From a virus, in IMG/VR virus record IMGVR_UViG_3300027985_000977, positions 1 to 21,744 of that record: a stretch of DNA of 21,744 bases; one strand, 5' to 3'. This document shows positions 8,662 to 21,744 of this stretch, in pieces. The notes under the pieces were generated by a model. That model searched no databases. It saw only the letters and a list, made by a program, of their open reading frames with translations, and was not told the DNA's origin. Position 1 is the stretch's first letter, and each line of letters begins with the position of its first letter. The translations under genes and the position numbers were made by a program.

Positions 8662-9657
8662 ATGTTGGTGCTGCGGACTCCCCAGGAGTACCCCGACCAG
8701 GAGCAGACCATCGCCCTCGGCGGCGTGTCCTACCGCGTGCGCCTCACCTGGCGCCCCTACTGCGAGGCGTGGTACCTCGACCTCCTGGCCGTGGACGGCA
8801 CGGAGATCCTCCTGGGCGTGCGCGTGGAGCCCGGCGCCAACTTGCTCCTCTGGGCGGACCCCGCCGTGGCCCCTCCCGGGGGGCTCATGGCGGTAGCCTC
8901 GGGCGTCACTGGCGACGAGGGGGAGCGCGCCCGGGTCAACGTCGCCCTGACCCGCCCCGTGGTCATCGTGGCCGGGGTCAACGACGCGCTCGAGTTCGAC
9001 GAGACCCTGGGCGGCGGCGGGGGCCCCTTCGTGGCCACCGTCGCCCCCGGCACCTACTACTGGCTCGGGGACGGCAGCCCCACCGACTTCTGCCTTGCGC
9101 TCGGGGCCGCCCTCACCGCTGCGGGCGCGTGGGTCTACTCGTGCACCATCAACGCCGGACTGCTGGACATCCAGACTGGCGGCGGGCAGCGGTACGAGAT
9201 CAACACGACGGCCGCGGCGACCACGATCTCGCCGTGGGTGCTCGGGGCGGCTCCAGAGGCGCCAGCCCCGGGAGCCGAGGCCGACGACGGGGCCGGCCAG
9301 TTGTTCCTCCCCAACGCCGTCTCTCGCTGGCCGCTGAAGGCCGGCCACATCTACGCCGACCCGTCCGGGGTCGAGTGGCGGTGCCTGGCCGACATCGCCG
9401 GGCTCTCCGGCGCCGAGCCGGCCACGCCCCGACAGGCGGTCTTCGAGACGGTCTCGCCGGCGGCGTCCACGCTGGCGGCGGGCTCCGTGCTCACTGCGGC
9501 CGCCCCCGCGGGCGCCCCCGTGGGCGTGGTCCAGACGATCGCCCTGCCCTACGAGGCGGGGGCGGACGCCATCGTGCTGCAGCGGGAGGATCTCGGGCAG
9601 TCGCTCATCCTGGTCTACGTCACGCAGGCCGAGATTGACGACCTGGCGGGGGCGTAG
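8662..9657 (+). CDS. Baseplate plug-like protein with inserted domains
   Basis: The N-terminal 80 residues ('IALGGVSYRVRLTWRPYCEAWYLDLLAVDGTEILLGVRV') match the short plug protein family named after cyanophage Pam3 gp18. Members I recall are about 100-130 aa, whereas this one is 331. Residues 105-195 look like a separate beta domain: 'FVATVAPGTYYW', 'LALGAALTAAGAWVYSC', 'LLDIQTGGGQRYEIN', a pattern seen in other phage structural proteins. A Pro/Ala-rich linker follows (196-210), then another domain with 'PLKAGHIYADPSGVEWRCLADI'. The end 'LILVYVTQAEIDDLAG' may return to the plug fold. It probably sits at the base of the tube. AGGAGG precedes ATG 8662. Confidence 0.6.
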   Translation: MLVLRTPQEYPDQEQTIALGGVSYRVRLTWRPYCEAWYLDLLAVDGTEILLGVRVEPGANLLLWADPAVAPPGGLMAVASGVTGDEGERARVNVALTRPVVIVAGVNDALEFDETLGGGGGPFVATVAPGTYYWLGDGSPTDFCLALGAALTAAGAWVYSCTINAGLLDIQTGGGQRYEINTTAAATTISPWVLGAAPEAPAPGAEADDGAGQLFLPNAVSRWPLKAGHIYADPSGVEWRCLADIAGLSGAEPATPRQAVFETVSPAASTLAAGSVLTAAAPAGAPVGVVQTIALPYEAGADAIVLQREDLGQSLILVYVTQAEIDDLAGA

Positions 9658-11813: not shown

Positions 11814-13024
11814 CGCTGCCCCTGACCGGCTACTCGGCCAAGACCCTCGCAGAGTGGCAGGCCGACCTTCGCACCGCGATCCGCGCCAGCCTGAACGCCA
11901 CCACGCCCGGCCTGGGTGACTCGGCCAACCTCGACGCCGGGAGCGTCCTGGGTAACCTCATCGACACGTTTGCCGCCAGGCTTGATGAACTGAGCAACGC
12001 AACTCAGGACCTCTACGACTCCTTCGATGAGCGCAACGCCACAGGGGTCTACCTGGCCAACCTGGCCGCCATCGTCGGGGTCGACCGCCAGGTGGCCACC
12101 TACTCGACCGTGACGCTCAGCCTCACGGCGACGGCGGCCTGTACCGTCCCCGCCGGGTCCATTGTGGCCGACGCCGCCGGGCAGCAGTGGGTCACCGCCA
12201 CGGACGTGCTCTTCGCCGCCCCCGGCGTCCAGACCGTCGAGGCGTCGCCCCCCGAGACCGGAGCCATCCAAGCCGGGGTCGGAACGCTGACCGTCATCGT
12301 GACCCCAGTCACGGGCTGGGCGAGCGTGACCAACGCCGCAGCGGCCACCGAGGGGCAGGACCGGGAGCTTGACCCTGCGCTGCGCTCTCGTCGTCGTCGG
12401 TCCCTGAAGATCACTGGGGCCTCCAGCCCGGATGCCATCTTCTCTCGCGTATCCGCGGTGGACGGCATCGAAGCCTGCCTCGTGCGACACAACAAGACGG
12501 CCGCAGCCGTCACCCTGGGCACCACGACGACGATCACCCTGGACGGCCACAGCTACGCCGTGGTGGTCTACCCCAACGGGCTCAGCGCGGCGCTCAGCGC
12601 TGCGGTGGCGCAGGCGATCTGGGACTCTGCCCCGTCCGGCATCGACTCCATGCGCATGGTGGCCAACGACGCGGGCGCCGGGGGCGGCGTGACCGAGACC
12701 GTGACCGACGCCTCTGGGCTCTCGCAGACCGTGAAGTTCTCGACCGCGGTCGACCGGCCGTTGACCTTCACCGTGACCGTCGTCAAGGGCGACCCCTTCC
12801 CGCTGGACGCCGTGCTGATCGCAGACGTGCAAGACGCCATCGTGGACTACGTCGCCACGCTGAGCGTCGGGGAGCAGCCCCTGGCCCTGCCGATCTACAC
12901 CGCCCTCGCCGCAGTCGAGGGCTGCTCAAACGTGACCGCCCTGGGCATCGTCGGGACCGTGGACACCTTCGAGATCGCGATCATCACGAACCCCGCGGCC
13001 GACATCGTCGTGACCGTGGTCTAG
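11810..13024 (+). CDS. Baseplate wedge protein, gpJ / Mu gp47-like
   Basis: This 404-aa protein has the baseplate J-like pattern: an N-terminal 'TLAEWQADLRTAIRASLN', then 'NLDAGSVLGNLIDTFAARLDELSNATQDLYDSF', a middle 'GSIVADAAGQQWVTATDV' and 'ETGAIQAGVGTLTVI', and 'LRSRRRRSLKITGASSPDAIFSRVSAVDGI', comparable to 'RR...S......a....I..VpGV' of Mu gp47 proteins. It would form the wedge with gp25. The start is GTG 11810, five bases after a full AGGAGGTGA Shine-Dalgarno (11797-11805). It ends in TAG fused to the next RBS. Confidence 0.85.
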   Translation: MTLPLTGYSAKTLAEWQADLRTAIRASLNATTPGLGDSANLDAGSVLGNLIDTFAARLDELSNATQDLYDSFDERNATGVYLANLAAIVGVDRQVATYSTVTLSLTATAACTVPAGSIVADAAGQQWVTATDVLFAAPGVQTVEASPPETGAIQAGVGTLTVIVTPVTGWASVTNAAAATEGQDRELDPALRSRRRRSLKITGASSPDAIFSRVSAVDGIEACLVRHNKTAAAVTLGTTTTITLDGHSYAVVVYPNGLSAALSAAVAQAIWDSAPSGIDSMRMVANDAGAGGGVTETVTDASGLSQTVKFSTAVDRPLTFTVTVVKGDPFPLDAVLIADVQDAIVDYVATLSVGEQPLALPIYTALAAVEGCSNVTALGIVGTVDTFEIAIITNPAADIVVTVV

Positions 13025-13034
13025 GGGGGAGCAG

Positions 13035-13601
13035 GTGCCGACGCCCTACCAGACCGACCACCTCGAGGAGTTGCTCGGGGAGACCCTGGCGCAGCTCCGC
13101 AGCCGGCCCAAGTACGCCGCCCTGCTCGCGGGCCTGGCCGACCAGATCCAAGAGCTCGAGGACGATCTCTTCGACCTGCGCAACGACCAGCTCCTGGCCA
13201 ACGCAGCGGGGGAGCAGCTCGACCGCTACGGCCGGCTCGTGGGCGAGCTGCGGGGCGGGCTCAGCGACGCGGACTACCGGCGCTTCATCGGGGCCCGGAT
13301 CCTGTCCAACCTCTGCGAGGGGACGGTCGACGAGCTGATCGAGATCCTGCGCATCATCTCGGCGCCGCAGGTGACCGGGACGGTGGTCGAGTACCAGGAG
13401 ATCTACCCGGCCGCCTTCGAGCTGCGCTTCTTCCGCAGCGTGCCCCTCACTGCGCTCATGCTGTCCCGGGTCTCGGCGCACATGGGCGACCTGTCGCCGG
13501 CCGGGGTGGGGATGATCGCCGTGGAGGGTACGGACCTCGCCTTCCGGCTCGACGTGGGCCCCGGTCTGGACGTTGGAGAGCTGAGCCGCATCGTGCTCTA
13601 G
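13035..13601 (+). CDS. Baseplate wedge / tail protein (DUF2612-like)
   Basis: This 188-aa protein has the DUF2612 pattern: 'LRSRPKYAALLAGLADQIQELEDDLFDLRN', then 'AAGEQLDRYGRLVGELRGGLSDADYRRFIGARILSNLCEGTVDELIEIL', and a beta C-terminus. It would be the outer wedge that links the baseplate to fibres, similar in place to Mu gp48. GTG 13035 is taken as the start because of the GGGGGGAG just upstream. It ends TAGGAGG, fusing the stop with the next RBS. Confidence 0.78.
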   Translation: MPTPYQTDHLEELLGETLAQLRSRPKYAALLAGLADQIQELEDDLFDLRNDQLLANAAGEQLDRYGRLVGELRGGLSDADYRRFIGARILSNLCEGTVDELIEILRIISAPQVTGTVVEYQEIYPAAFELRFFRSVPLTALMLSRVSAHMGDLSPAGVGMIAVEGTDLAFRLDVGPGLDVGELSRIVL

Positions 13602-13610
13602 GAGGATCGG

Positions 13611-14876
13611 ATGGCGGGAACGACGGGCAATCTGGCGTGGGCAGAAGACGGGAGCGAACTTGCAACCGAGCCAGTAGACGGCTTCAAGGCAAGCGGCTAC
13701 AGCTTCAAGCACGTCCCCACCTACGAGAATCTCAACTGGACGCTCCAGCAGCTCGGGCGAGCCAGCGTGCGCCGGTTCAACACGGCCGAGGGCCTTATCC
13801 AGGCCCGGCGCAGCGGGACCGGAGGCGGGGCTCCCAACGAGCTCCATGAGGACTTCGGGCTCGTGCTGCCGCCGACGACTGACCCTCTCTGGAGCGAGCT
13901 TTGGGCCGTGGCCGGGGACGCCACGGAGACCGAGTTCGTGTCCGACGGGGAGTTCCTCTGGACCATGGCGGGGGCCGCCCTGAACATGGCGGTCCGCAAG
14001 CGCAGCCGCATCGACGGCAGCGTGGTGGCGACCGGGGTCATGGCCTGGGACTACCCCTACATCGCCACGGCGGGGGGCAACGTCTACGCCCTCGACGACG
14101 TGGTCGGCGTGGCCACGCTCCACGCGGTCGACCGGGACACGCTGGCCAGCTCCTACAACGTGGCGATCGGCGCGGTGACCCCGACCGCCATCGCCACGGA
14201 CGGGACCTACGTCTGCGTGCTCGAGGGCAACAACGCCCACCTCTACCAGGACACGGGCGCCGCGCTCGTGGCGGTGGGCGGGGCCTGGCCCTACACCCCC
14301 GGCGTTGCGGTCAACGCGGTCGCCATGGACGGGGGCTACATCGTCCTCGGCGGGGCCACGGACGGCGGGAACAACGAGGCGTGGATCCTCGACTACGCCG
14401 CCACGGTCCAGGCGAGCTTGACCAGGACGGGCAACGCAGCGATCACCCGCATCGCCTTCGACGGGCGCCGGATCGGCTTCGGCGGAGCGGTGGACGCTGG
14501 GAACTACATCGGGCTCTTCTCGGGGCTCTTCGGCACGCTGCGCTGGGAAGACAACGTCGCGGCGAACGACGTTGCGATCACGCTGGACGGGACGCTCCTG
14601 CGGGCGAGCAACGGCAGCGTTGCGATCTACGACCCCCAGGACGCCGCGATCTGGCGCATCATCCTCTGGGACGCGGGCGCCGCCACGGCGGTCAACCGTC
14701 TCGCCTACGACTTCGACGGGCTCTTCGCCCTGGGGGCCCCGGACGCCGGCGGCAACAGGTTGAAGCGCTACCAGATCCACGCCACCCCGAAGTTCTACTC
14801 GGTGGAGCAGGACGCCACGCACCCCCACCGGGCGATCCACAGCATCATCCAGCCGGTTGACCACCGGGCTCTCTAG
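13611..14876 (+). CDS. Putative tail fibre/adhesin with seven-bladed propeller
   Basis: This 421-aa protein follows the last baseplate wedge, where fibres or receptor-binding proteins begin. The N-terminus ('VDGFKASGYSFKHVPTYENLNWTLQQLG') resembles baseplate-attachment ends of phage fibres. From about residue 109 to 375 I see seven imperfect repeats about 42 residues apart, each centred on a short strand pair such as 'AIATDGTYVCVL' (193), 'AVAMDGGYIVLGG' (237), 'IAFDGRRIGFGG' (281) and 'AITLDGTLLRAS' (322). This spacing suggests a seven-bladed beta-propeller. No signal peptide is present, unlike the next three genes. Receptor binding is inferred from position and fold type only. Confidence 0.6.
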   Translation: MAGTTGNLAWAEDGSELATEPVDGFKASGYSFKHVPTYENLNWTLQQLGRASVRRFNTAEGLIQARRSGTGGGAPNELHEDFGLVLPPTTDPLWSELWAVAGDATETEFVSDGEFLWTMAGAALNMAVRKRSRIDGSVVATGVMAWDYPYIATAGGNVYALDDVVGVATLHAVDRDTLASSYNVAIGAVTPTAIATDGTYVCVLEGNNAHLYQDTGAALVAVGGAWPYTPGVAVNAVAMDGGYIVLGGATDGGNNEAWILDYAATVQASLTRTGNAAITRIAFDGRRIGFGGAVDAGNYIGLFSGLFGTLRWEDNVAANDVAITLDGTLLRASNGSVAIYDPQDAAIWRIILWDAGAATAVNRLAYDFDGLFALGAPDAGGNRLKRYQIHATPKFYSVEQDATHPHRAIHSIIQPVDHRAL

Positions 14877-14885
14877 GAGGCCGCC

Positions 14886-15932
14886 ATGCTTCGACGTGCT
14901 CTGCTCACCCTGTCCGCAGTCGTCGCCCTGGCGCTGCCCTCCGTCGCCTTCGCCCAGGGCGCCTACGGTCCCGGAGCGTGCGGGCTGGAGACCACCAGGG
15001 TCGCTCTCTGCACCGGGGGCCCCGCCGGCCCCGTGAACCTCGAGGAGATCGACGGCAACCCGGTCGACGTGGGCGCCGGCGTGGCCGGGCTCGGGACCCT
15101 GCGGATCATCCTCGCCAGCGACGACGCGACCGCTCTGGCGATCGCTGCGATGGCGGCATGGGACCTGGACACCGGGATCGTCACGGCGACCACCCAGCGG
15201 GTGACCTTGGCCACCGACGATCCCGCTTCGGTGTCGCTGGTGACCATCGCCGGCTGGACGCTCGGCGGCGGGCTGGCAGACGCCACCACGCAGCGGGTCT
15301 ACGAGGCCGACGACTCGCTCTTGTCCGCCGGCGTCCAGGCGATCGCTGAGGCCGTGGCGGCCCCCGCCGGCCCGATCCCCCCCTCGGTAATGCTGTTCGG
15401 CGCCGACGACGGGATCGCTACTCGGGCGCTGGTCGCAGACACCGCAGGTGCGCTCACCGTGGCGGCGGCGCAGCTTCCGCCTGCTCGTGGGGCGCAGGCT
15501 CAGGCGGACTCGCTGAGCGTCGTGCAGGCCACGGCGGACGTGTGGGAGGTCAACCAGACGCAGATCGGGGGCAACACCATTGACGCAGGCGCTGGGGCGG
15601 ACTCGACCGGGACGCAGCGCGTTGTGGAGGCCAGCCGGGACGGATCTGCCTACTCGGGCGGGACCGTCACCCAGGGCGCCGGGGACGCCACGATCGCCGT
15701 GCGTGCGACCCGCAAGTGGGCGCTGGTCCAGAACGTTGACGCGGACGGAGCCTTGTGCGTGGCCCTTGGATCTACCACGAACGCGTGCGCCGACTGTCAC
15801 CTGCTGGACGCTGCGGCGGCCGCTGGCGAGTCCGGCGGCACTTGGCAGATCGGAGACTGGGGCGGGGCGATCTCCGTCTGCGCCCCCGACGCTGGGACCA
15901 CGATCTCGTATCGGGTCACCGAGGCCTACTGA
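14886..15932 (+). CDS. Secreted-type fibre-region protein with signal peptide, 348 aa
   Basis: The first 24 residues form a clear Sec signal peptide: MLRR, a hydrophobic core, and a 'SVAFA' cleavage site before Gln-Gly. This is unusual for a virion gene. The mature part has repeated motifs: 'VDVGAGVAGLGTLRIILASDD' near residue 60, 'TTQRVTLATDD' (102), 'TTQRVYEADD' (135), and 'IDAGAGADSTGTQRVVEAS' (232). The last 75 residues ('WALVQNVDADGALCVALG' onward) look like a beta-sandwich with four Cys (about 291-337) that could form disulphides in the periplasm. I do not recognise a named family. AGGAGG precedes ATG 14886, and the stop overlaps the next start. It could be a fibre, a decoration or an exported host-surface factor. 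Confidence 0.7.
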   Translation: MLRRALLTLSAVVALALPSVAFAQGAYGPGACGLETTRVALCTGGPAGPVNLEEIDGNPVDVGAGVAGLGTLRIILASDDATALAIAAMAAWDLDTGIVTATTQRVTLATDDPASVSLVTIAGWTLGGGLADATTQRVYEADDSLLSAGVQAIAEAVAAPAGPIPPSVMLFGADDGIATRALVADTAGALTVAAAQLPPARGAQAQADSLSVVQATADVWEVNQTQIGGNTIDAGAGADSTGTQRVVEASRDGSAYSGGTVTQGAGDATIAVRATRKWALVQNVDADGALCVALGSTTNACADCHLLDAAAAAGESGGTWQIGDWGGAISVCAPDAGTTISYRVTEAY

Positions 15933-16519
15933 TGCGCCGGACTACCGCTGGCTGGCTGATGGCCGCTGCGCTGCTCGGCATCTTCGCCATGGCCCAGATC
16001 TCGCAGCCCTTCCCCGCCCGGCTAGACATGCTCGGCGGGGTCCCGACCGTCGACTGGGTCCACCATGAGGTCCACGACGGGCACACGTTTCTGGCTACCG
16101 ATCTGCAGACGATCAACGCCGGAGTGCCCAATCGGACGGTGTGGACGCTGACGACGGCGGCCAATGCCGCCCACACACTCTGCGCAGTCACCGCCAACGG
16201 AGAGGTGGAGATCTACGTCAACAAGTCGCCTACCATCTCGGCGGCTGGCGTTCTGGGCGTTCCGGTCAACCTGGACACGGCGAGTTCAACTGCTCCCGTT
16301 ACCACCGTGCACCGCAACGTCACGCTGTCGGCGGACGGGACCAAGCACGGAGTCTGGCTTGTCGGGACTTCGGCGCCTGCGTCTCGTGTCGGCGGCGGCG
16401 TCCGACTCGGGCAAGAGTCGCTGATCGGTCCGTCCAGCACATACGCTGTAATTGCCGTAGCGACGAACAACGGCACCAAGGTGGCGATCGAGTGCTCTTG
16501 GTACGAGGAGGCCCCATGA
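15932..16519 (+). CDS. Beta-sandwich phage protein with signal peptide, 195 aa
   Basis: This gene starts at ATG 15932, overlapping the previous stop (ATGA). The N-terminus (MRRTTAGW, hydrophobic core to 'GIFAMA' before Gln-Ile) looks like a signal peptide or a single membrane anchor. The rest, 'VHHEVHDGHTFLATDLQ', 'NRTVWTLTTAANAAHTLCAV', and a C-terminal 'TYAVIAVATNNGTKVAIECSWYEE', resembles a beta-sandwich family of small phage surface proteins ('VHxGxxF...') that are normally unexported. Two Cys residues in the mature part could pair. The stop overlaps the next ATG. The fold family is tentative. Confidence 0.68.
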   Translation: MRRTTAGWLMAAALLGIFAMAQISQPFPARLDMLGGVPTVDWVHHEVHDGHTFLATDLQTINAGVPNRTVWTLTTAANAAHTLCAVTANGEVEIYVNKSPTISAAGVLGVPVNLDTASSTAPVTTVHRNVTLSADGTKHGVWLVGTSAPASRVGGGVRLGQESLIGPSSTYAVIAVATNNGTKVAIECSWYEEAP

Positions 16520-17679
16520 CCGCGCTGCGATCTCTAGCTTTGGCGCTCGCCCTGCTGCTCCCGGTCCCCGCCCTGGCCCAGGGCCTCGGGTGCCCGGGGA
16601 TCGCTCAGCCGTGCGCAGCGACGACACCGGCCCCGACCGAAGACACGGTCTATGTCTACCCGGTCGTTGCGCAGTCCAGCCCAGGCGGGCTCGGCTCGCT
16701 GGCAATGTCCGCCGTCGAGACCGTCCGCTTCCTCATGGACGACCATGCCACCTACTCGGGCCCCGGCTGGACGCTGATCGAGGCCCGCAGCGACGGCGCC
16801 CGAGAGATCCCGGCGACGGCCAGCGATCTGGACAGCCTGGCCACGGCCGTCTCGTGGAAGGGCGACGGCTCCGGGCTCGCAGCAGGCGACTGGGTTGTGC
16901 TGCGGTCTGCTGCCAGTGTTGAGGCCGCCGGCAGGTTCATGGGCTACTTTGAGATCGGGGCCAACGACACTTGGAACTACTGGCTGTTCCCGAACGACGA
17001 CTTCACGGCTCAGGGGGCCGGCAATCAGAGCCCGCCGACGACGGGTGACGGTCTCCCGGCCAGCCCCTACGTCGTGGGCAACGGCGCCTCGCTAGCAGCG
17101 ATCACGACCTACACCGGGGCCGGCGACCTGCACATCGCGGCCACTGCGGCGGGCATGTCGTGGATCCGCGACGACGGGTCCAGCAACATCGACTGGATGT
17201 ACCTGGGCCATGCACCGGCCGTCTCTGGCACGGTAGGAGGCGCAGCCGACGACGCCCGGCCTTGGGTCGTGCTGGGCAACGGGCAGGCCAACGTCTACGC
17301 GTCCGTTGGCGGCGGAGGTGCCTACTGGTGCCGCACGGACTACGCAGCGGCCGCCGTGGTCTGCGGGACCAAGGGCGACACGGCCAACGGAGCGACCTAC
17401 TTTCAAGCGACGGCGACCACGCAGCCGACCGCCAACCGCTGGCAGATGCTGGAACTCCCGCTGGTCTTCCTCGACACCGGCGACACCCAGATGCTGGCGC
17501 CGAACAAGCGGCTCGCGGTGGGCATCTCGCAGCTCGTGGACGGCGGCGCCAACCCGTACCGAACCACGATCTCCAGCGACGGCTACACCACCGGCGACCC
17601 CGACTGGGCGTGCTGGTCCACTGCCGCCGCCTATGGCCCGGTCTGCCTGCGCAGCGACGGCGTGACGGCCTGGCCATGA
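16516..17679 (+). CDS. Fibre-like protein with signal peptide, 387 aa
   Basis: The real start is ATG 16516, within a longer frame; it overlaps the preceding stop. 'MTALRSLALALALLLPVPALA' followed by Gln-Gly is a good Sec signal peptide. The mature protein has two Cys near its start, then 'DDHATYSGPGWTLIEARSDG', 'AGDWVVLRSAASVEAAGRFMGYFEI', 'WNYWLFPNDDFTAQG' and 'RWQMLELPLVFLDTGDT'. These strand-rich Trp/Tyr/Gly patterns resemble distal fibre or receptor-binding proteins I have seen in marine and soil phages, but no named family is assigned. The C-terminal third contains several Cys. It is followed by an overlapping ATGA at 17676. Confidence 0.68.
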   Translation: MTALRSLALALALLLPVPALAQGLGCPGIAQPCAATTPAPTEDTVYVYPVVAQSSPGGLGSLAMSAVETVRFLMDDHATYSGPGWTLIEARSDGAREIPATASDLDSLATAVSWKGDGSGLAAGDWVVLRSAASVEAAGRFMGYFEIGANDTWNYWLFPNDDFTAQGAGNQSPPTTGDGLPASPYVVGNGASLAAITTYTGAGDLHIAATAAGMSWIRDDGSSNIDWMYLGHAPAVSGTVGGAADDARPWVVLGNGQANVYASVGGGGAYWCRTDYAAAAVVCGTKGDTANGATYFQATATTQPTANRWQMLELPLVFLDTGDTQMLAPNKRLAVGISQLVDGGANPYRTTISSDGYTTGDPDWACWSTAAAYGPVCLRSDGVTAWP

Positions 17680-17756
17680 GGCGCGGGCCTCTGGACGGGC
17701 CAGACGAGCCCGAGGACCTGCGGCGACTGGTGGCCAGTGCGCAGGGGAACGTGCGC

Positions 17757-17784
17757 TTGCTGGCTCGCCCTTGCGTGCTACACT
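17757..17784 (+). promoter_or_regulatory. Candidate extended -10 promoter before acb2-like gene
   Basis: TTGCTG (17757-17762), a 16-base spacer, and TACACT (17779-17784) preceded by TGC make an extended -10 box. Transcription would start near 17791, about 23 bases before ATG 17814. It lies inside the possible N-terminal extension of the same frame, which argues that the shorter start is used at least from this promoter. The -35 match is only three of six. Confidence 0.4.
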
Positions 17785-17813
17785 GTCTCCCGGACCACAC
17801 TGGAGGAAGCGCC

Positions 17814-18218
17814 ATGCAACGAGAGATCAAGCACCATCACGACGGCCAGGGCCTCACCGAGCTTTGCCACGTCTACGCCGTCGACCCCCCGCACCCGGTC
17901 AACGGGGCGCATCACGAGTACCGGATCGACCGAGAACTGAGCCAAGAAGACCTGCGAGAGGGCTGCGGGGTCTCCGTGTGTGCCGGCTGGATCCAGTTCC
18001 AGCGCGGCCCGCGCACCGCTTCCGACTCAACTCCGGGCACGCTTGACGGCGCCTTGCTGTCCGTGCTGATCGACCGGTTCGAGTCGTTCCAGTCCGGCCC
18101 ATTCGCCTGCCCCGAGAACGGCGAGACCCTCGGTCACCTGCGCGCCGCCCTGGACTGCATGATCGCCCGTGCACGCGAGCGAGCTAGCCGCGGGGTGCTC
18201 GGTAAGAACGCCAAGTGA
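17814..18218 (+). CDS. Acb2/Tad1-like cyclic nucleotide sponge (anti-CBASS/anti-Thoeris type)
   Basis: This 134-aa protein has the signature I associate with the Acb2/Tad1 family: 'HHEYRID' (33-39), 'IQFQRGP' (60-66), 'LLSVLIDRFESFQSGPFACPEN' (81-102) and 'RARERASRGVLG' (119-130). Characterised members bind the second messengers made by CBASS or Thoeris (cyclic di/trinucleotides, gcADPR-type molecules), so the host defence effector is not activated. ATG 17814 has GGAGGAA upstream and a candidate promoter before it. The frame is also open back to ATG 17676, giving a possible 180-aa form that overlaps the fibre stop. The first 30 residues (with HHH) differ from the family pattern I recall. Which messenger it binds cannot be read from sequence. 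Confidence 0.72.
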   Translation: MQREIKHHHDGQGLTELCHVYAVDPPHPVNGAHHEYRIDRELSQEDLREGCGVSVCAGWIQFQRGPRTASDSTPGTLDGALLSVLIDRFESFQSGPFACPENGETLGHLRAALDCMIARARERASRGVLGKNAK

Positions 18219-18235
18219 GCGCCTATGGAGGCCCG

Positions 18236-18370
18236 ATGACTTGCAACCGCTGCGTGCTCTGGGCCCCGTGGCCGTGGCGCTGGCTGATCGAGGCGCTCCC
18301 ATTCAACGGCGCCTTCTTCGCCTACGAGGGGGGCTACTGGCCCGCTCTCTGGCACTGGATGCGAGGATGA
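18236..18370 (+). CDS. Trp-rich 44-aa small protein
   Basis: A 44-codon ORF lies exactly between the sponge gene and the next gene. It starts at ATG 18236 with GGAGG (18227-18231) four bases upstream, and its TGA overlaps the following ATG (18367). The product has seven Trp residues, including 'VLWAPWPWRWLIEALPF' and 'YWPALWHWM', and two Cys near the start. It has amphipathic, membrane-active character but no long clean transmembrane segment. The function is unknown. The coupled position supports translation; composition alone would not. Confidence 0.5.
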   Translation: MTCNRCVLWAPWPWRWLIEALPFNGAFFAYEGGYWPALWHWMRG

Positions 18371-18663
18371 TCCAAGACACCATGCGGCGCACTGTCGAGT
18401 GGATGCAGAGCCACGGGTTCAAGACGACCGACTCCGGCGACGGGGCGCAGAACGTGGCTGCTGGGATGGGCTGCGCGATCGACCGGCCCCACGTCTTCGC
18501 GACAGTCTCCCCGGCGGACCTAGTCAGCGAGGCTGACCGGCTGTGCGTGCTGGCGAGCGTGGAGGGAATGGGCGGGACAGTGGAGGCCACTTACAGCCCG
18601 GACGACGGGATCGCCGTGGTCTGCCTCTTCGGCGTGCGTGACTCCGACTGGACGGCCCCATGA
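18367..18663 (+). CDS. Conserved phage protein of unknown function, 98 aa
   Basis: This gene starts at ATG 18367, overlapping the previous TGA. The 98-aa product begins 'MIQDTMRRTVEWMQSHGFKTTDSGDG' and contains 'AAGMGCAIDRPHVFATVSPADLVSEADRLCVLA' and 'VEATYSPDDGIAVVCLFGV'. I recall similar short proteins with 'HGFxTTDSGDG' and 'DxPHVF' from other phages, but no function is known to me. It is soluble, alpha/beta in pattern. Its last four bases overlap the endolysin start (ATGA at 18660). A link to the neighbouring anti-defence gene is possible but only by location. Confidence 0.72.
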   Translation: MIQDTMRRTVEWMQSHGFKTTDSGDGAQNVAAGMGCAIDRPHVFATVSPADLVSEADRLCVLASVEGMGGTVEATYSPDDGIAVVCLFGVRDSDWTAP

Positions 18664-19379
18664 CCTACCCAACCGGCTCCGGCCCCCTCGGCCTTCCAGA
18701 CCTATCCCGCACCCTGCCCGACGTGCGAGCCGCTGGCGAGGCGGTCGTGGCCTGGGCCCTGGCGCAGTGGGAGCAGGGGATCCGCGACCGGCCCGAGGAC
18801 TACGACCGGATCACACCCTACCTGCGGGCGGTGGGCGACGCTCGGGACTACCCTGCCCGCAGCAAGGGGCGGGACTACGCGTGGTGCGGGGCCTTCGCTG
18901 CGGCGGCCTGGCGCTCCGTCGGGCTCCACCCGACGCTGGCAAAGCACCTGTTCCCCAGCACCTACCGCCTCGCCCTCTTCGGGCAGTACCGCACCGACCG
19001 GCGCCTCTGGCCCAGCGACCGGGTGACCCTGCCCGGTGGCGAGCGGCTGAGCCTGCGGGACCTTCACGCCGGGGCCCCCCGCTACTGCGAGGTGGTGCCG
19101 CCCGGGGCTCGCCCTCGGCTGCCGCTGCGCCCGGGCGACGTGTGCTGCGTCGGGGCAGTGGACGGGCCATGGTGGGGCTCGCACGTCGTCCTGGTGGACT
19201 CGCTGACCGCCCTGGCCCAGGACTCGTTCCTGACCCTCGAGGGCAACGGCGTCGGGGAACTCGGCGCCGGGCTGGGGCGTTGCGAGGGTGTGGTGCGCAA
19301 CAGCCGGTCCCTGGCCAGCGTGCGCCTGCATCTCCGCCCAAGCCCTTGGGATCTTGTGCCGGAGCTGGCATACTCTTGA
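18660..19379 (+). CDS. Endolysin, CHAP/NlpC-P60-type peptidase or amidase
   Basis: This 239-aa protein has a Cys-His-Asn arrangement typical of CHAP-like papain-fold cell-wall hydrolases: Cys76 in 'YAWCGAFAAAAW', a 'LRPGDVCCVG' strand (156-164), His175 in 'WWGSHVVLVDS', and Asn196 in 'LEGNGVG'. It would cut peptide bonds or the amide bond in peptidoglycan. No signal peptide is visible, so it needs the holin to reach the wall. The N-terminal 70 residues are helical and Arg/Asp-rich. It overlaps the previous gene (ATGA) and precedes the holin/spanin genes, which confirms a lysis cassette. The substrate bond cannot be assigned from sequence. Confidence 0.75.
   Translation: MTYPTGSGPLGLPDLSRTLPDVRAAGEAVVAWALAQWEQGIRDRPEDYDRITPYLRAVGDARDYPARSKGRDYAWCGAFAAAAWRSVGLHPTLAKHLFPSTYRLALFGQYRTDRRLWPSDRVTLPGGERLSLRDLHAGAPRYCEVVPPGARPRLPLRPGDVCCVGAVDGPWWGSHVVLVDSLTALAQDSFLTLEGNGVGELGAGLGRCEGVVRNSRSLASVRLHLRPSPWDLVPELAYS
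19346..19374 (+). promoter_or_regulatory. Candidate promoter before holin-side lysis genes
   Basis: TTGGGA (19346-19351), a 17-base spacer and CATACT (19369-19374) with an upstream TGG form an extended -10-type promoter at the end of the endolysin gene. The start would be near 19381. A 5-bp hairpin GCCGC/GCGGC (19384-19397) follows almost at once, then GGGGG as ribosome binding site of the next gene. Confidence 0.4.
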
Positions 19380-19383
19380 CGAG

Positions 19384-19397
19384 GCCGCAACCGCGGC
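19384..19397 (+). promoter_or_regulatory. 5' leader hairpin before TM/coiled-coil gene
   Basis: GCCGC (19384-19388) pairs with GCGGC (19393-19397) around AACC, five bases before the GGGGG ribosome binding site. It repeats the hairpin-then-RBS arrangement of the capsid, sheath and tube genes. Confidence 0.35.
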
Positions 19398-19410
19398 GAC
19401 TGGGGGTTCC

Positions 19411-19770
19411 ATGAAGGACGCAGACGCCGCGCAGAGATCGCAGACGCAGGCGGTCGGATGGCCGACTCTCGCGGGGCTCGCCCTCGCCGTCATCGGTTCT
19501 ATCTCCGGGCTGCTGCTCTTCACCGCCGACGGGCGCTACGTTCGCCCCGCCGAGGCGCGTGAGGTGGCCAAGGACGTAGTACAGGCCGAGGCGCAGAGCA
19601 AGTCCGAAGCGGCCGACGTCGAGCGCGTCAACCGCAACGAGCACGAGGCCATCCGCCGCGAGATCACCGAGCGGCTCACCCGCATCGAGGAACGCCAGGG
19701 CGCCATCACCCGCGCCCTGGAGAAGCTCCAGGCAAACATCGAGCGCATGCACCAGAGGAGAGATCGATGA
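19411..19770 (+). CDS. Lysis-cassette TM plus coiled-coil protein
   Basis: This 119-aa protein starts at ATG 19411. It has one membrane segment at about residues 18-37 ('PTLAGLALAVIGSISGLLLF') and a long charged helix from about 60 to 115 with 'IRREITERLTRIEERQGAITRALEKLQANIERM', a good coiled coil. That layout fits an inner-membrane lysis accessory, for example a holin partner or an additional i-spanin-like protein. It is unlike XhlA, where the order is coiled coil then TM. It overlaps the holin candidate by four bases. The exact role is unresolved. Confidence 0.65.
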   Translation: MKDADAAQRSQTQAVGWPTLAGLALAVIGSISGLLLFTADGRYVRPAEAREVAKDVVQAEAQSKSEAADVERVNRNEHEAIRREITERLTRIEERQGAITRALEKLQANIERMHQRRDR

Positions 19771-20270
19771 GCAAGACCACCCGCAGCGCCCTCGTCGGAG
19801 GCGCCGCAATCCTGTCCATGGCCTTTTTCTGCGCCGTCGCCTTCGGGCAGGTGGCCATCCCGCAGCCCGTGGCGGACGTGGCGGCCAACGTGCCCGCAGC
19901 GGGCGCTGATCCCGGCCTGGCGGACCTCCTGAGCGGGGTGGGCGACGTCTACGCCGGCTTCCGCACGGGCGTCTTGGCGGGCCTCGTGGCGCTCGTCATG
20001 CTGCTCACCCGAATCGCCCGCACCTCGATCGGCGGCAAGCTCTTGGAGCGGCTGCCCTCGAACTGGCGCTGGTCGGTGCCCGCTGCGCTGGGGCTCATCC
20101 TGGCCGTGCTCATCGGGATCCAGTCGGGGCAGCCCTGGTATCAGATCGCCTCGGACGCCATGATGCTGATCGCTGCGGCCATCGGCGGCCACCACTGGCT
20201 CAGCGACGTGGCGGGCAAGGGCAGGGCAGCGGCGAAGGCCGAGCCCCCGGCGCCCCCGGCCGAGGGCTGA
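19767..20270 (+). CDS. Putative holin, 3-4 TM segments
   Basis: This 167-aa protein has hydrophobic segments at about residues 8-28 (possibly a cleavable signal ending 'AVAFG' before Gln), 66-83 ('TGVLAGLVALVMLLTRI'), 103-119 ('SVPAALGLILAVLIGIQ') and 127-145 ('IASDAMMLIAAAIGGHHWL'). The C-terminus is short, basic and Pro/Ala-rich, as in many holins. Position between endolysin and spanin genes supports a holin that releases the endolysin. If the first segment is cleaved, three TMs remain (class I topology). It overlaps the preceding gene with ATGA. The sequence alone does not prove hole formation. Confidence 0.68.
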   Translation: MSKTTRSALVGGAAILSMAFFCAVAFGQVAIPQPVADVAANVPAAGADPGLADLLSGVGDVYAGFRTGVLAGLVALVMLLTRIARTSIGGKLLERLPSNWRWSVPAALGLILAVLIGIQSGQPWYQIASDAMMLIAAAIGGHHWLSDVAGKGRAAAKAEPPAPPAEG

Positions 20271-20273
20271 CGC

Positions 20274-20597
20274 GTGACCGCCGATCTGATCATGGCGTTG
20301 CTCTTCGCCCTGGCGGCGGGCGCCGCTGGTGTCTGGGGCTGGATGGAGCGCGCCTCCCGGCTGAGGCTCCAGGCGGCGGCCGCGGACGCTGAGCAGCGGG
20401 CCGAGGCCGCCCTCGTGGCGCAGGGGGCAGCCGAGGCTCAGGCCGAGCTCGAGCTGGCCCGCAACGACATGGAGGACCTCGACGATGATGCCTTCGCTGC
20501 AGCTGTTGATGCTGCTGACGCTCGCCTCGGCCTGTCCGGCGCTCGCCCTCGCTCAGACCTCGCAGGGCTCGCCCGGCGGGAGGGTCTCGTCCACTGA
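20274..20597 (+). CDS. i-spanin-like protein (Rz-type)
   Basis: A 107-aa product from GTG 20274, three bases after the holin stop. It has a single N-terminal TM ('LIMALLFALAAGAAGVWGW', about 5-23) and then an Ala/Glu-rich helix 'RLQAAAADAEQRAEAALVAQGAAEAQAELELARNDM', the layout of Rz-type inner-membrane spanins. Its final 113 bases are overlapped in the +1 frame by the next gene, the arrangement known from Rz/Rz1. No clear Shine-Dalgarno is visible, so coupling to the holin is likely. Confidence 0.6.
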   Translation: MTADLIMALLFALAAGAAGVWGWMERASRLRLQAAAADAEQRAEAALVAQGAAEAQAELELARNDMEDLDDDAFAAAVDAADARLGLSGARPRSDLAGLARREGLVH

Positions 20598-20976
20598 GGC
20601 GGCCCTTGCCCTGGCCGGCGTGGATCCACCCGAGCTTGAGCCCGTCCCCGCCGTGGAACCCAGCCCCCCGGCCCTCGTCCCCACGCGCTGCGACGCGTCA
20701 GGGGTCTGCCACGTCGCCCGCCCCCGGCTCGAGCGCCTTCTTCTGGCCGCCACGGTGGAACTGCCCGGCTGCCAGGAGCGGCTACGGGAGGATGGCGAGC
20801 GCCTGGTGTCCCTTCGGCGTGACCTCCTGGTGAGCGCCAGGGAGGCGGCTACGGCGGGACAGCGGATGGAGGCAGACGGTCCCCCGCCGTGGGGCTGGGT
20901 AGCCGTGGGGGGCGTGACGGGGGCGCTTCTGGGGGCTGCGGTGGCGATCCTGGCGGTGAAGGCGGCGAAGCCCTGA
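20485..20976 (+). CDS. Overlapping o-/u-spanin-like protein, signal peptide plus C-terminal TM
   Basis: This 163-aa protein starts at ATG 20485, nine bases after GGAGG, inside the i-spanin-like gene in the +1 frame. Its N-terminus is a signal peptide ('LLMLLTLASACPALALA' then Gln). Cys17 in 'LASAC' is a weak lipobox; the alternative is ordinary cleavage after 'LALA'. A Pro-rich section (48-66, 'DPPELEPVPAVEPSPPALVP') resembles Rz1-type outer spanins. A helical part with Cys69, Cys75 and Cys96 follows. The C-terminal 'WVAVGGVTGALLGAAVAILAVKA' (138-160) is a TM segment, as in one-piece u-spanins. The last codons AAG CCC TGA are part of an 18-bp direct repeat, and a terminator follows. Confidence 0.6.
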   Translation: MMPSLQLLMLLTLASACPALALAQTSQGSPGGRVSSTEAALALAGVDPPELEPVPAVEPSPPALVPTRCDASGVCHVARPRLERLLLAATVELPGCQERLREDGERLVSLRRDLLVSAREAATAGQRMEADGPPPWGWVAVGGVTGALLGAAVAILAVKAAKP

Positions 20977-20985
20977 CGCGAGAAG
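20968..20985 (+). repeat. 18-bp direct repeat, copy 1
   Basis: AAGCCCTGACGCGAGAAG occurs here, spanning the stop codon of the last lysis gene and the first bases of the terminator stem. An identical copy is at 21083-21100, starting 115 bases later. Confidence 0.9.
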
Positions 20986-21012
20986 AGCCGCCCTGGCCGA
21001 GGCGGCTCTTCT
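20981..21012 (+). terminator. Hairpin terminator of the late/lysis operon, probably bidirectional
   Basis: AGAAGAGCCGCC (20981-20992) pairs perfectly with GGCGGCTCTTCT (21001-21012), 12 bp, with an 8-base loop. The outer part of the stem is A-rich on the left and T-rich on the right (CTCTTCTT), so it could act on both strands. It starts four bases after the last + strand stop. No long U tract follows. Confidence 0.75.
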
Positions 21013-21049
21013 TGGCGCCGCATTTGCGGGGCCGCATTGGCGCTGTAGC
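20981..21049 (-). ncRNA. Hypothetical short RNA between promoter and terminator
   Basis: A transcript from the minus-strand promoter at 21084-21056 to the bidirectional hairpin would be about 70 bases. It contains a small inverted repeat CCGCA/TGCGG (21018-21029) and the terminator stem, whose sequence is complementary to the 3' end of the late mRNA. This rests only on promoter and hairpin recognition. Confidence 0.2.
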
Positions 21050-21055
21050 CAGGGC

Positions 21056-21084
21056 ATCTTACCCGGCGGCCGACACCACGTCAA
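21056..21084 (-). promoter_or_regulatory. Minus-strand promoter candidate TTGACG-17-TAAGAT
   Basis: On the minus strand TTGACG (21084-21079), a 17-base spacer and TAAGAT (21061-21056) give a good sigma70-type match (five of six and four of six). It would start near 21049 and read toward the terminator at 21012-20981. No ORF with a ribosome binding site follows, so the product would be a short RNA. Confidence 0.4.
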
Positions 21085-21100
21085 GCCCTGACGCGAGAAG
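21083..21100 (+). repeat. 18-bp direct repeat, copy 2
   Basis: Identical to 20968-20985. Here it is non-coding, overlaps the start of the minus-strand -35 box (21084-21079), and forms the left arm of a hairpin: GACGCG(A)GAAG at 21090-21100 pairs with CTTCCGCGTC at 21110-21119 with one bulged A. Confidence 0.9.
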
Positions 21101-21145
21101 GGCCCGGCGCTTCCGCGTCGAGCCCTCCCCTAGCCGAGCTGTCGC

Positions 21146-21199
21146 CCCATCAGGATTGATGTTGCCCGGACAACCTACCCGATGGGCGGGCGGTGTCAA
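21146..21199 (-). promoter_or_regulatory. Palindromic operator-like site with second minus-strand promoter candidate
   Basis: 21161-21174 (GTTGCCCGGACAAC) is a palindrome at 12 of 14 positions. It overlaps the -10 box (TAGGTT, 21177-21172) of a minus-strand promoter candidate whose -35 is a perfect TTGACA (21199-21194) at 16 bases. A perfect CATCA/TGATG repeat (21148-21161) and an outer CCCATC/GATGGG stem (21146-21151 with 21181-21186) surround it. It may be an operator or simply a terminator-like structure for the minus-strand operon. The whole gene-free stretch 20977-21210 shows nothing else I recognise. Confidence 0.3.
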
Positions 21200-21210
21200 G
21201 GGCTACCTCT

Positions 21211-21402
21211 TCACCAGTCAATCCTCCCGGTCTCTCTGAGCCAGACGAGGACCTGCCAGGCGGTCCCGGTGAAGACCACCTCGTCGCCCTGCAGGATCTC
21301 CTTCGCGTACGGGCCGGCCGTCCTCGACTCCGGGTCACGGTGGCGCAGGCCCAGGGCGAGCAGGAGGTCGCGGAGGGGGAGGTGGCGCAGTAGGTCGCTC
21401 AC
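21211..21402 (-). CDS. Small hypothetical protein, 63 aa
   Basis: This minus-strand ORF would start at GTG 21402, overlapping the stop of the preceding gene as GTGA, and encodes 63 residues: 'VSDLLRHLPLRDLLLALGLRHRD', then 'AGPYAKEILQGDEVVFTGTAWQVLVWLRETGRIDW'. An upstream in-frame GTG at 21432 would add ten residues and has GGAGG downstream of it rather than upstream, so it is less likely. The product looks soluble, with a helix then a beta/helix part. I do not recognise it. It is the last gene of the minus-strand unit and converges with the late operon. Confidence 0.55.
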   Translation of the reverse strand: MSDLLRHLPLRDLLLALGLRHRDPESRTAGPYAKEILQGDEVVFTGTAWQVLVWLRETGRIDW

Positions 21403-21716
21403 AGTTCGAACCCGTCCATGGCCTCCAGGCACCGGCAGCAGGGCGCAGCGAGGTGGCAGTTGCAGTCGGCTGGCGGTGCGTACTTCTCTCCGGCCCAGCG
21501 CACGACGCGCCAGCGCGGCGAGTAGTCCCCGGTGCGCCGGCGCTCGGCGCCGTCCTTTGGTGCATCGGGGTCGAAGTACTCCTGCCAGGTCCCGTCATCC
21601 TCTCGGCGGAGAAGCAGCGGGTCTCCGTCCTCATCCACCGACCACCACTCCGAGGAGTCGTTCGGCTCGGTCCTCTGCTCCCCCAGGGTGCACTCGCTCA
21701 TCCAGTCGCTGTTCAT
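21399..21716 (-). CDS. Acidic Cys-cluster hypothetical protein, 105 aa
   Basis: This minus-strand gene starts at ATG 21716 with AAAGGAGA six to seven bases upstream. The N-terminal 60 residues are acidic and Trp-containing ('SSEWWSVDEDGDPLLLRREDDGTWQEYFD'). The middle has 'PRWRVVRWAGEKYAPP'. The end holds a cluster Cys85-X-Cys87-His88 and Cys93-Cys94-X-Cys96, which could bind a metal. No family is recognised. Small acidic proteins of this sort are common in early phage operons. Its stop overlaps the GTG of the next gene. Confidence 0.65.
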   Translation of the reverse strand: MNSDWMSECTLGEQRTEPNDSSEWWSVDEDGDPLLLRREDDGTWQEYFDPDAPKDGAERRRTGDYSPRWRVVRWAGEKYAPPADCNCHLAAPCCRCLEAMDGFEL

Positions 21717-21744
21717 CGTCCATCTCCTTTGGCCGCCTTGATGC
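21713..21744 (-). CDS. C-terminal end of an upstream minus-strand gene, partial
   Basis: Reading leftward from the window edge, one frame gives 'IKAAKGDGR' followed by TGA (21715-21713) overlapping the ATG of the 105-aa gene. The basic, helical tail and the ATGA junction fit a co-transcribed upstream gene. Only nine codons are visible, so its function cannot be judged. Confidence 0.4.
   Translation of the reverse strand, partial: IKAAKGDGR

Follow-up and report, generated by a model that had tools for sequence, protein, structure and literature searches.

By the accepted view, tailed phages fold and assemble their structural proteins in the cytoplasm, which raises the question of why three consecutive genes in the fibre region of a phage from an environmental sample should begin with what look like Sec signal peptides. 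The window, i.e., the whole stretch of 21,744 bases analysed here (an IMG/VR virus record, 70% GC), contains a contractile tail module with a sheath protein (DUF3383/phrog_205, E 2.6e-33), a tube-like KPP10_Orf10 protein, a tape measure, a Pam3_gp18-type plug, baseplate J and a DUF2612 tail protein. A leaderless ORF of 421 aa at 13611 follows this module and lies just 5' of the three leader genes, which are referred to below as genes 1–3, or the cassette. On the 3' side, the cassette is followed by two small genes (17676 and 18367), an endolysin-like gene (18660), and membrane- and spanin-like genes (19411–20976). The cassette genes and their predicted leaders, with the cleavage site marked by a hyphen, are:

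14886–15932, + strand: gene 1, putative exported protein of 348 aa with a leader, TQRV(T)LASDD-type repeats and a C-terminal beta-type domain
14886–14954, + strand: gene 1 leader, MLRRALLTLSAVVALALPSVAFA-Q, score 19.8
15932–16519, + strand: gene 2, putative exported protein of 195 aa whose C-terminal half resembles phrog_5335
15932–15994, + strand: gene 2 leader, MRRTTAGWLMAAALLGIFAMA-Q, score 9.1, the weakest of the three
16516–17679, + strand: gene 3, putative exported protein of 387 aa, no known family, leader score 16.3
16516–16578, + strand: gene 3 leader, MTALRSLALALALLLPVPALA-Q, score 16.3

The initial annotation had placed signal-peptide-like starts at 14886, 15932 and 16516, and these coordinates are correct: hydrophobic leaders are present, ending in the sites AFA-Q (residue 23), AMA-Q (residue 21) and ALA-Q (residue 21), respectively. 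All three have the features associated with Sec and signal peptidase I, i.e., a positive n-region, a hydrophobic core and a small-x-small site within ~35 residues, which are strong in genes 1 and 3 and moderate in gene 2. No second TM-like segment was seen in the three products. A lipobox Cys at position +1 is absent from all three leaders; the +1 residue is Gln, and Cys occurs only deeper in the mature parts. That Gln follows the site in all three could simply mirror the leader style of the host.

The leader scores derive from a home-made SPase-I weight matrix combined with simple charge and core terms, a rough scorer that is not SignalP, and the matrix was derived from a set of well-known leaders of E. 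coli, 28 at first and 27 in a later run. Among 4336 internal 40-mers of the window proteins, a single one scores at least 9.1 and none reaches the scores of genes 1 and 3 or of the two lysis-region proteins discussed below. Shuffles of each leader's own composition attain the observed score in 1, 90 and 34 of 5000 cases for genes 1, 2 and 3, respectively. The control set consisted of 160 annotated late genes, drawn from seven reference phages or phage regions (lambda, B3, pOW20-A, MW202455, Mu, KsaM-C1 and S2B); annotated genes were chosen, as greedy ORF calling is unsuitable at 70% GC, where long antisense ORFs mask real genes. None of the 160 reaches 9, and the maximum, 7.6, belongs to lambda lom, which thus served as an unplanned positive control for the scorer. 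On these features, export of the products of genes 1–3 is very probable.

Downstream of the cassette, the lysis region encodes three proteins of relevance here:

18660–19379, + strand: endolysin-like protein with a conserved WCGAF...H...EGN pattern, 83% identical in contig 3300027985_000690
19767–20270, + strand: holin-like multi-TM membrane protein with an AFG-Q leader-like N-terminus and two further TM-like segments, outside the exported cassette
20485–20976, + strand: spanin-like protein with an ALA-Q leader and a C-terminal TM, starting within 20274 in another frame

The last two had been grouped with genes 1–3 as five proteins sharing one site pattern. The strings themselves are as claimed (ALA-Q at residue 23 of 20485 and AFG-Q at residue 27 of 19767), with leader scores of 17.6 and 10.4 that are reached by 9 and 231 of 5000 shuffles, respectively, but the proteins do not form a single class, since 19767 and 20485 are membrane proteins with additional TM-like segments, and the grouping was dropped. 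The product of 20274 is i-spanin-like, with an N-terminal TM, a coiled coil and weak PHROG matches to Rz. Rz1 starts inside Rz in another frame, as 20485 does in 20274; the combination of a leader and a C-terminal TM in 20485 is unusual for an o-spanin, and a possible lipobox (ASAC) is seen inside the leader. For 18660, no family match was obtained, and motif and position suggest its role as an enzyme. Between the cassette and this gene lies 17676–18218, whose product contains 7 Cys residues and matches phrog_2428 (E 3.3e-19); it is missing from the corresponding place in contig 3300027985_000690.

As for expression, the three genes are tightly joined:

15930–16519, + strand: overlapping junctions, TGATG at 15930–15934 (genes 1/2) and ATGA at 16516–16519 (genes 2/3)

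Because of these overlaps, genes 1–3 are probably co-translated. The junction between gene 3 and 17676 is likewise ATGA, and genes 1 and 3 are preceded by AGGAGG-type sites. A scan from 12,900 to 21,744 for terminator-like and forward promoter-like sites gave none, and since the junctions overlap and no internal site of this kind was seen, the three products are probably expressed jointly, along with those of the late genes.

When 2.9 million viral contigs were queried with the individual genes and those next to them, one relative of the cassette was returned, IMGVR_UViG_3300027985_000690 (L002). Genome scans gave no further cassette relative and no host, and the cassette is known from two genomes only. 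The relative contains the same three genes, all with leaders, and the endolysin-like neighbour, which there directly adjoins the cassette. Its head and neck genes are of Mu type (gpT-type phrog_371, E 3.7e-77; Gp36; tail_S), its tape measure is long, and none of the genes scanned was recognised as a sheath gene, all of which makes it a probable siphophage. DNA similarity between the two phages is concentrated in two blocks, the larger of which covers most of the cassette:

15242–17210, + strand: DNA block in common with contig 3300027985_000690 (L002/L011), blastn, 85%

The second block, 18674–19373, is 82.5% identical, and outside the two blocks only short or weak protein matches are found. 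The three leader genes and the endolysin-like gene therefore appear to have moved between differently built phages. In the plug-type protein (8662–9657 in the window), a 100-aa stretch is 37% identical to part of a protein directly 3' of the tape measure in the other phage (L011 9212–9508). A transglycosylase-like ORF of the relative (L002 15271–15804, minus strand), located away from the tail-side endolysin-like gene, starts with a leader-like sequence.

A survey of homologues for conservation of the leader had been proposed as a check, and in the sole cassette relative leaders are found on all three genes. Those of genes 2 and 3 are near-identical in the two phages, with one residue change each. 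Gene 2 is 96% identical over its length (L002:8837-9424); in gene 3, the leader and the first ~50 aa are conserved and the remainder is strongly diverged, such that the mature part is only about half identical. Gene 1 is 69% identical to L002:7767-8837, with a differing N-terminal segment of ~110 aa, and this N-terminal third lies outside the common DNA block. The DNA sequences encoding the two gene 1 leaders cannot be aligned, synonymous change being saturated, and both nevertheless still encode leaders (AFA-Q vs VLA-Q). Leaderless tail proteins are encoded just 5' of the cassette in both phages, 13611 in the window and 5751 and 7260 in the relative; they are unrelated between the two, and the cassette thus need not be the adsorption fibre.

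Relatives of parts of the proteins point to phage-structural domains. The repeats in gene 1 are of the GTQRVTLASDDP type, and a pattern scan located the TQRVTLASDD repeat in five other viral contigs, where all five proteins lack a leader. Pairwise E-values between gene 1 and leaderless repeat proteins are 3e-5 and 1e-8, and the likeness is confined to the TQRVTLASDD repeats. One contig with a leaderless TQRVTLASDD protein also carries a cysteine-peptidase-like ORF with a strong leader, MQPLSAFRFPLLLLLLATSASA-A (L009 5522–6037, minus strand). In gene 2, the C-terminal ~110 aa give a weak match to phrog_5335 (profile positions 73–185 of 191, E 1.2e-3), as does the copy in the relative (E 2.2e-4). 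The KsaM-C1 member of this family matches at E 7e-57, and relatives of the KsaM-C1 protein occur in 230 phage records. In contrast to gene 2, the KsaM-C1 member and gp51 of Vibrio phage XM1 are leaderless and coded in head regions; gp51 is not mentioned in the text of the XM1 structure paper. For gene 3, no relatives beyond the cassette were found in Pfam, PHROGs, NCBIfam, PDB or the viral contigs.

Searches of PDB, Pfam and NCBIfam yielded nothing convincing for genes 1–3, and no fibre family was found for gene 1 in Pfam, PHROGs or NCBIfam. Neither an enzymatic family nor a PADLOC anti-phage defence match was obtained for the three genes, and AlphaFold2 models from two-sequence alignments have low mean pLDDT (31.9 for gene 2 and 29.8 for gene 3). 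The domains of genes 1 and 2 look phage-structural in type, and the description of the products as tail fibres has partial support in the fibre-type repeats of gene 1 and the phrog_5335 half of gene 2, virion membership being putative. The initial annotation had named homologues without leaders as an observation that would speak against its proposal; for genes 1 and 2 these exist among distant relatives of their domains, and not in the cassette relative. Because leaderless relatives exist for parts of both genes, virion-type domains have probably gained leaders here, or else the leaders have disappeared from the other phages.

Cys residues are present in the mature parts, as previously pointed out; they number 6, 2 and 6 in genes 1, 2 and 3, and the counts in the relative are 4, 2 and 4, i.e., even in all six proteins. 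The residues missing from the relative form the pairs C32/C42 in gene 1 and C272/C283 in gene 3. Paired loss and even counts are suggestive of disulphides, with the qualification that both pairs are located in generally diverged stretches. Richness in Cys was ruled out as evidence in its own right, since the leaderless neighbours 17676, 18367 and 18660 exceed the cassette proteins in this respect.

The explanation that we prefer, with a confidence close to but short of even, is that genes 1–3 constitute a co-translated late cassette of three soluble Sec-leader proteins that would act at the host envelope. Supporting sequence features are the leaders with their AxA-Q sites, leader upkeep in the one relative, the overlaps, the lack of further membrane segments, and an origin of some parts (the repeats in gene 1 and phrog_5335 in gene 2) in leaderless phage domains. 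Production would coincide with that of the tail and lysis proteins; the products would then cross the membrane via SecYEG and be cut by signal peptidase I, after which disulphides would form in the periplasm. They may then operate at the envelope of the dying cell, most likely by binding or masking surface structures so that progeny and competitors avoid sticking to the host and its debris, and would be shed at lysis. Surface masking as the function of the cassette proteins is proposed tentatively, at rather less than even confidence. The head-region coding of gene 2 relatives suits a virion part and counts against this explanation.

Exported phage proteins that block receptors are known from the superinfection-exclusion lipoproteins of the T5 Llp type; unlike these, the cassette leaders have no lipobox, and the cassette proteins are much larger. 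A late host-surface role is our first choice for two reasons: both phages encode separate leaderless tail proteins upstream, and tail regions of other phages are known to encode proteins that are exported or act at surfaces (Lom; PblB, PMC4508584). Lambda Lom, the top scorer among the controls, is an exported outer-membrane protein with its gene between J and the side-tail-fibre genes (PMC12309495), and is similar in being an exported protein from the tail-fibre region. It is a single beta-barrel, whereas the cassette comprises three soluble-looking proteins without barrel features, two of which have virion-type domains; no family match to a Lom-type outer-membrane barrel was found, and the C-termini (EAY, EAP and AWP) lack the alternating pattern. 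PblB of streptococcal prophages is tail-fibre-like, freed at phage lysis and binds viable cells, and one version has a predicted signal peptide (PMC4508584). The resemblance is that of a tail-fibre-like phage protein acting at cell surfaces; PblB differs in being a single large protein from a Gram-positive host, and no sequence relation is expected.

Alternatively, the products could be virion parts for which folding and disulphide formation take place in the periplasm, with attachment to the tail or head delayed until the compartments mix at lysis. The virion-type domains of genes 1 and 2 and the fibre-like genome position agree with this, and the swap between unrelated phages resembles the host-recognition module common to Alteromonas phages A5 and V22, which is likewise a near-tail module exchanged between phages of different morphology (PMC10579305). 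That module consists of a tail fibre and a chaperone, whereas the cassette proteins carry export leaders. With separate leaderless tail proteins upstream in each phage, leaderless relatives that lack any export signal, and no precedent in the literature searched, we regard this alternative as unlikely, and the more specific proposal of a second, extracytoplasmic assembly step, in which virion components are deliberately exported, oxidised, folded in the periplasm and added at lysis, as improbable. About equally improbable is that the proteins are exported lysis-support factors, aiding the endolysin and spanins in envelope breakage or preventing debris from trapping progeny: the endolysin-like gene has moved along with the cassette, and in the relative the two are adjacent, but genes 1–3 match no enzymatic family, and lysis proteins do not typically have fibre-type repeats.

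Lysogenic-conversion morons that change the lysogen surface would have a parallel in lambda lom, exported and located between tail genes (PMC12309495). The overlapping junctions without a forward promoter-like site of their own, and the lack of any temperate sign noticed in either phage, make this account distinctly doubtful. The least probable reading takes the hydrophobic N-termini for uncleaved membrane anchors or virion-internal helices. The gene 2 leader, with its low score, could alternatively be such an anchor, and codon 20 of the gene is an in-frame Met, with no ribosome-binding site discernible; however, small-x-small sites followed by Gln are found in all three genes and again in the relative, and the leaderless relatives have no such helix.

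An exported three-gene cassette with partly virion-type domains, common to phages of different tail type, would imply either an unnoticed late-infection treatment of the host surface or virion parts that are finished outside the cytoplasm. Single-gene precedents are known in Lom and PblB, and the open literature searched contains no account of consecutive Sec-exported fibre-region proteins, three in a row included, which is an absence there and not proof. In Psychrobacter phage pOW20-A, a gene between baseplate genes (L016 35555–36049) has a lipoprotein-type leader with LTAC, and its product is probably another exported protein encoded within a tail module.
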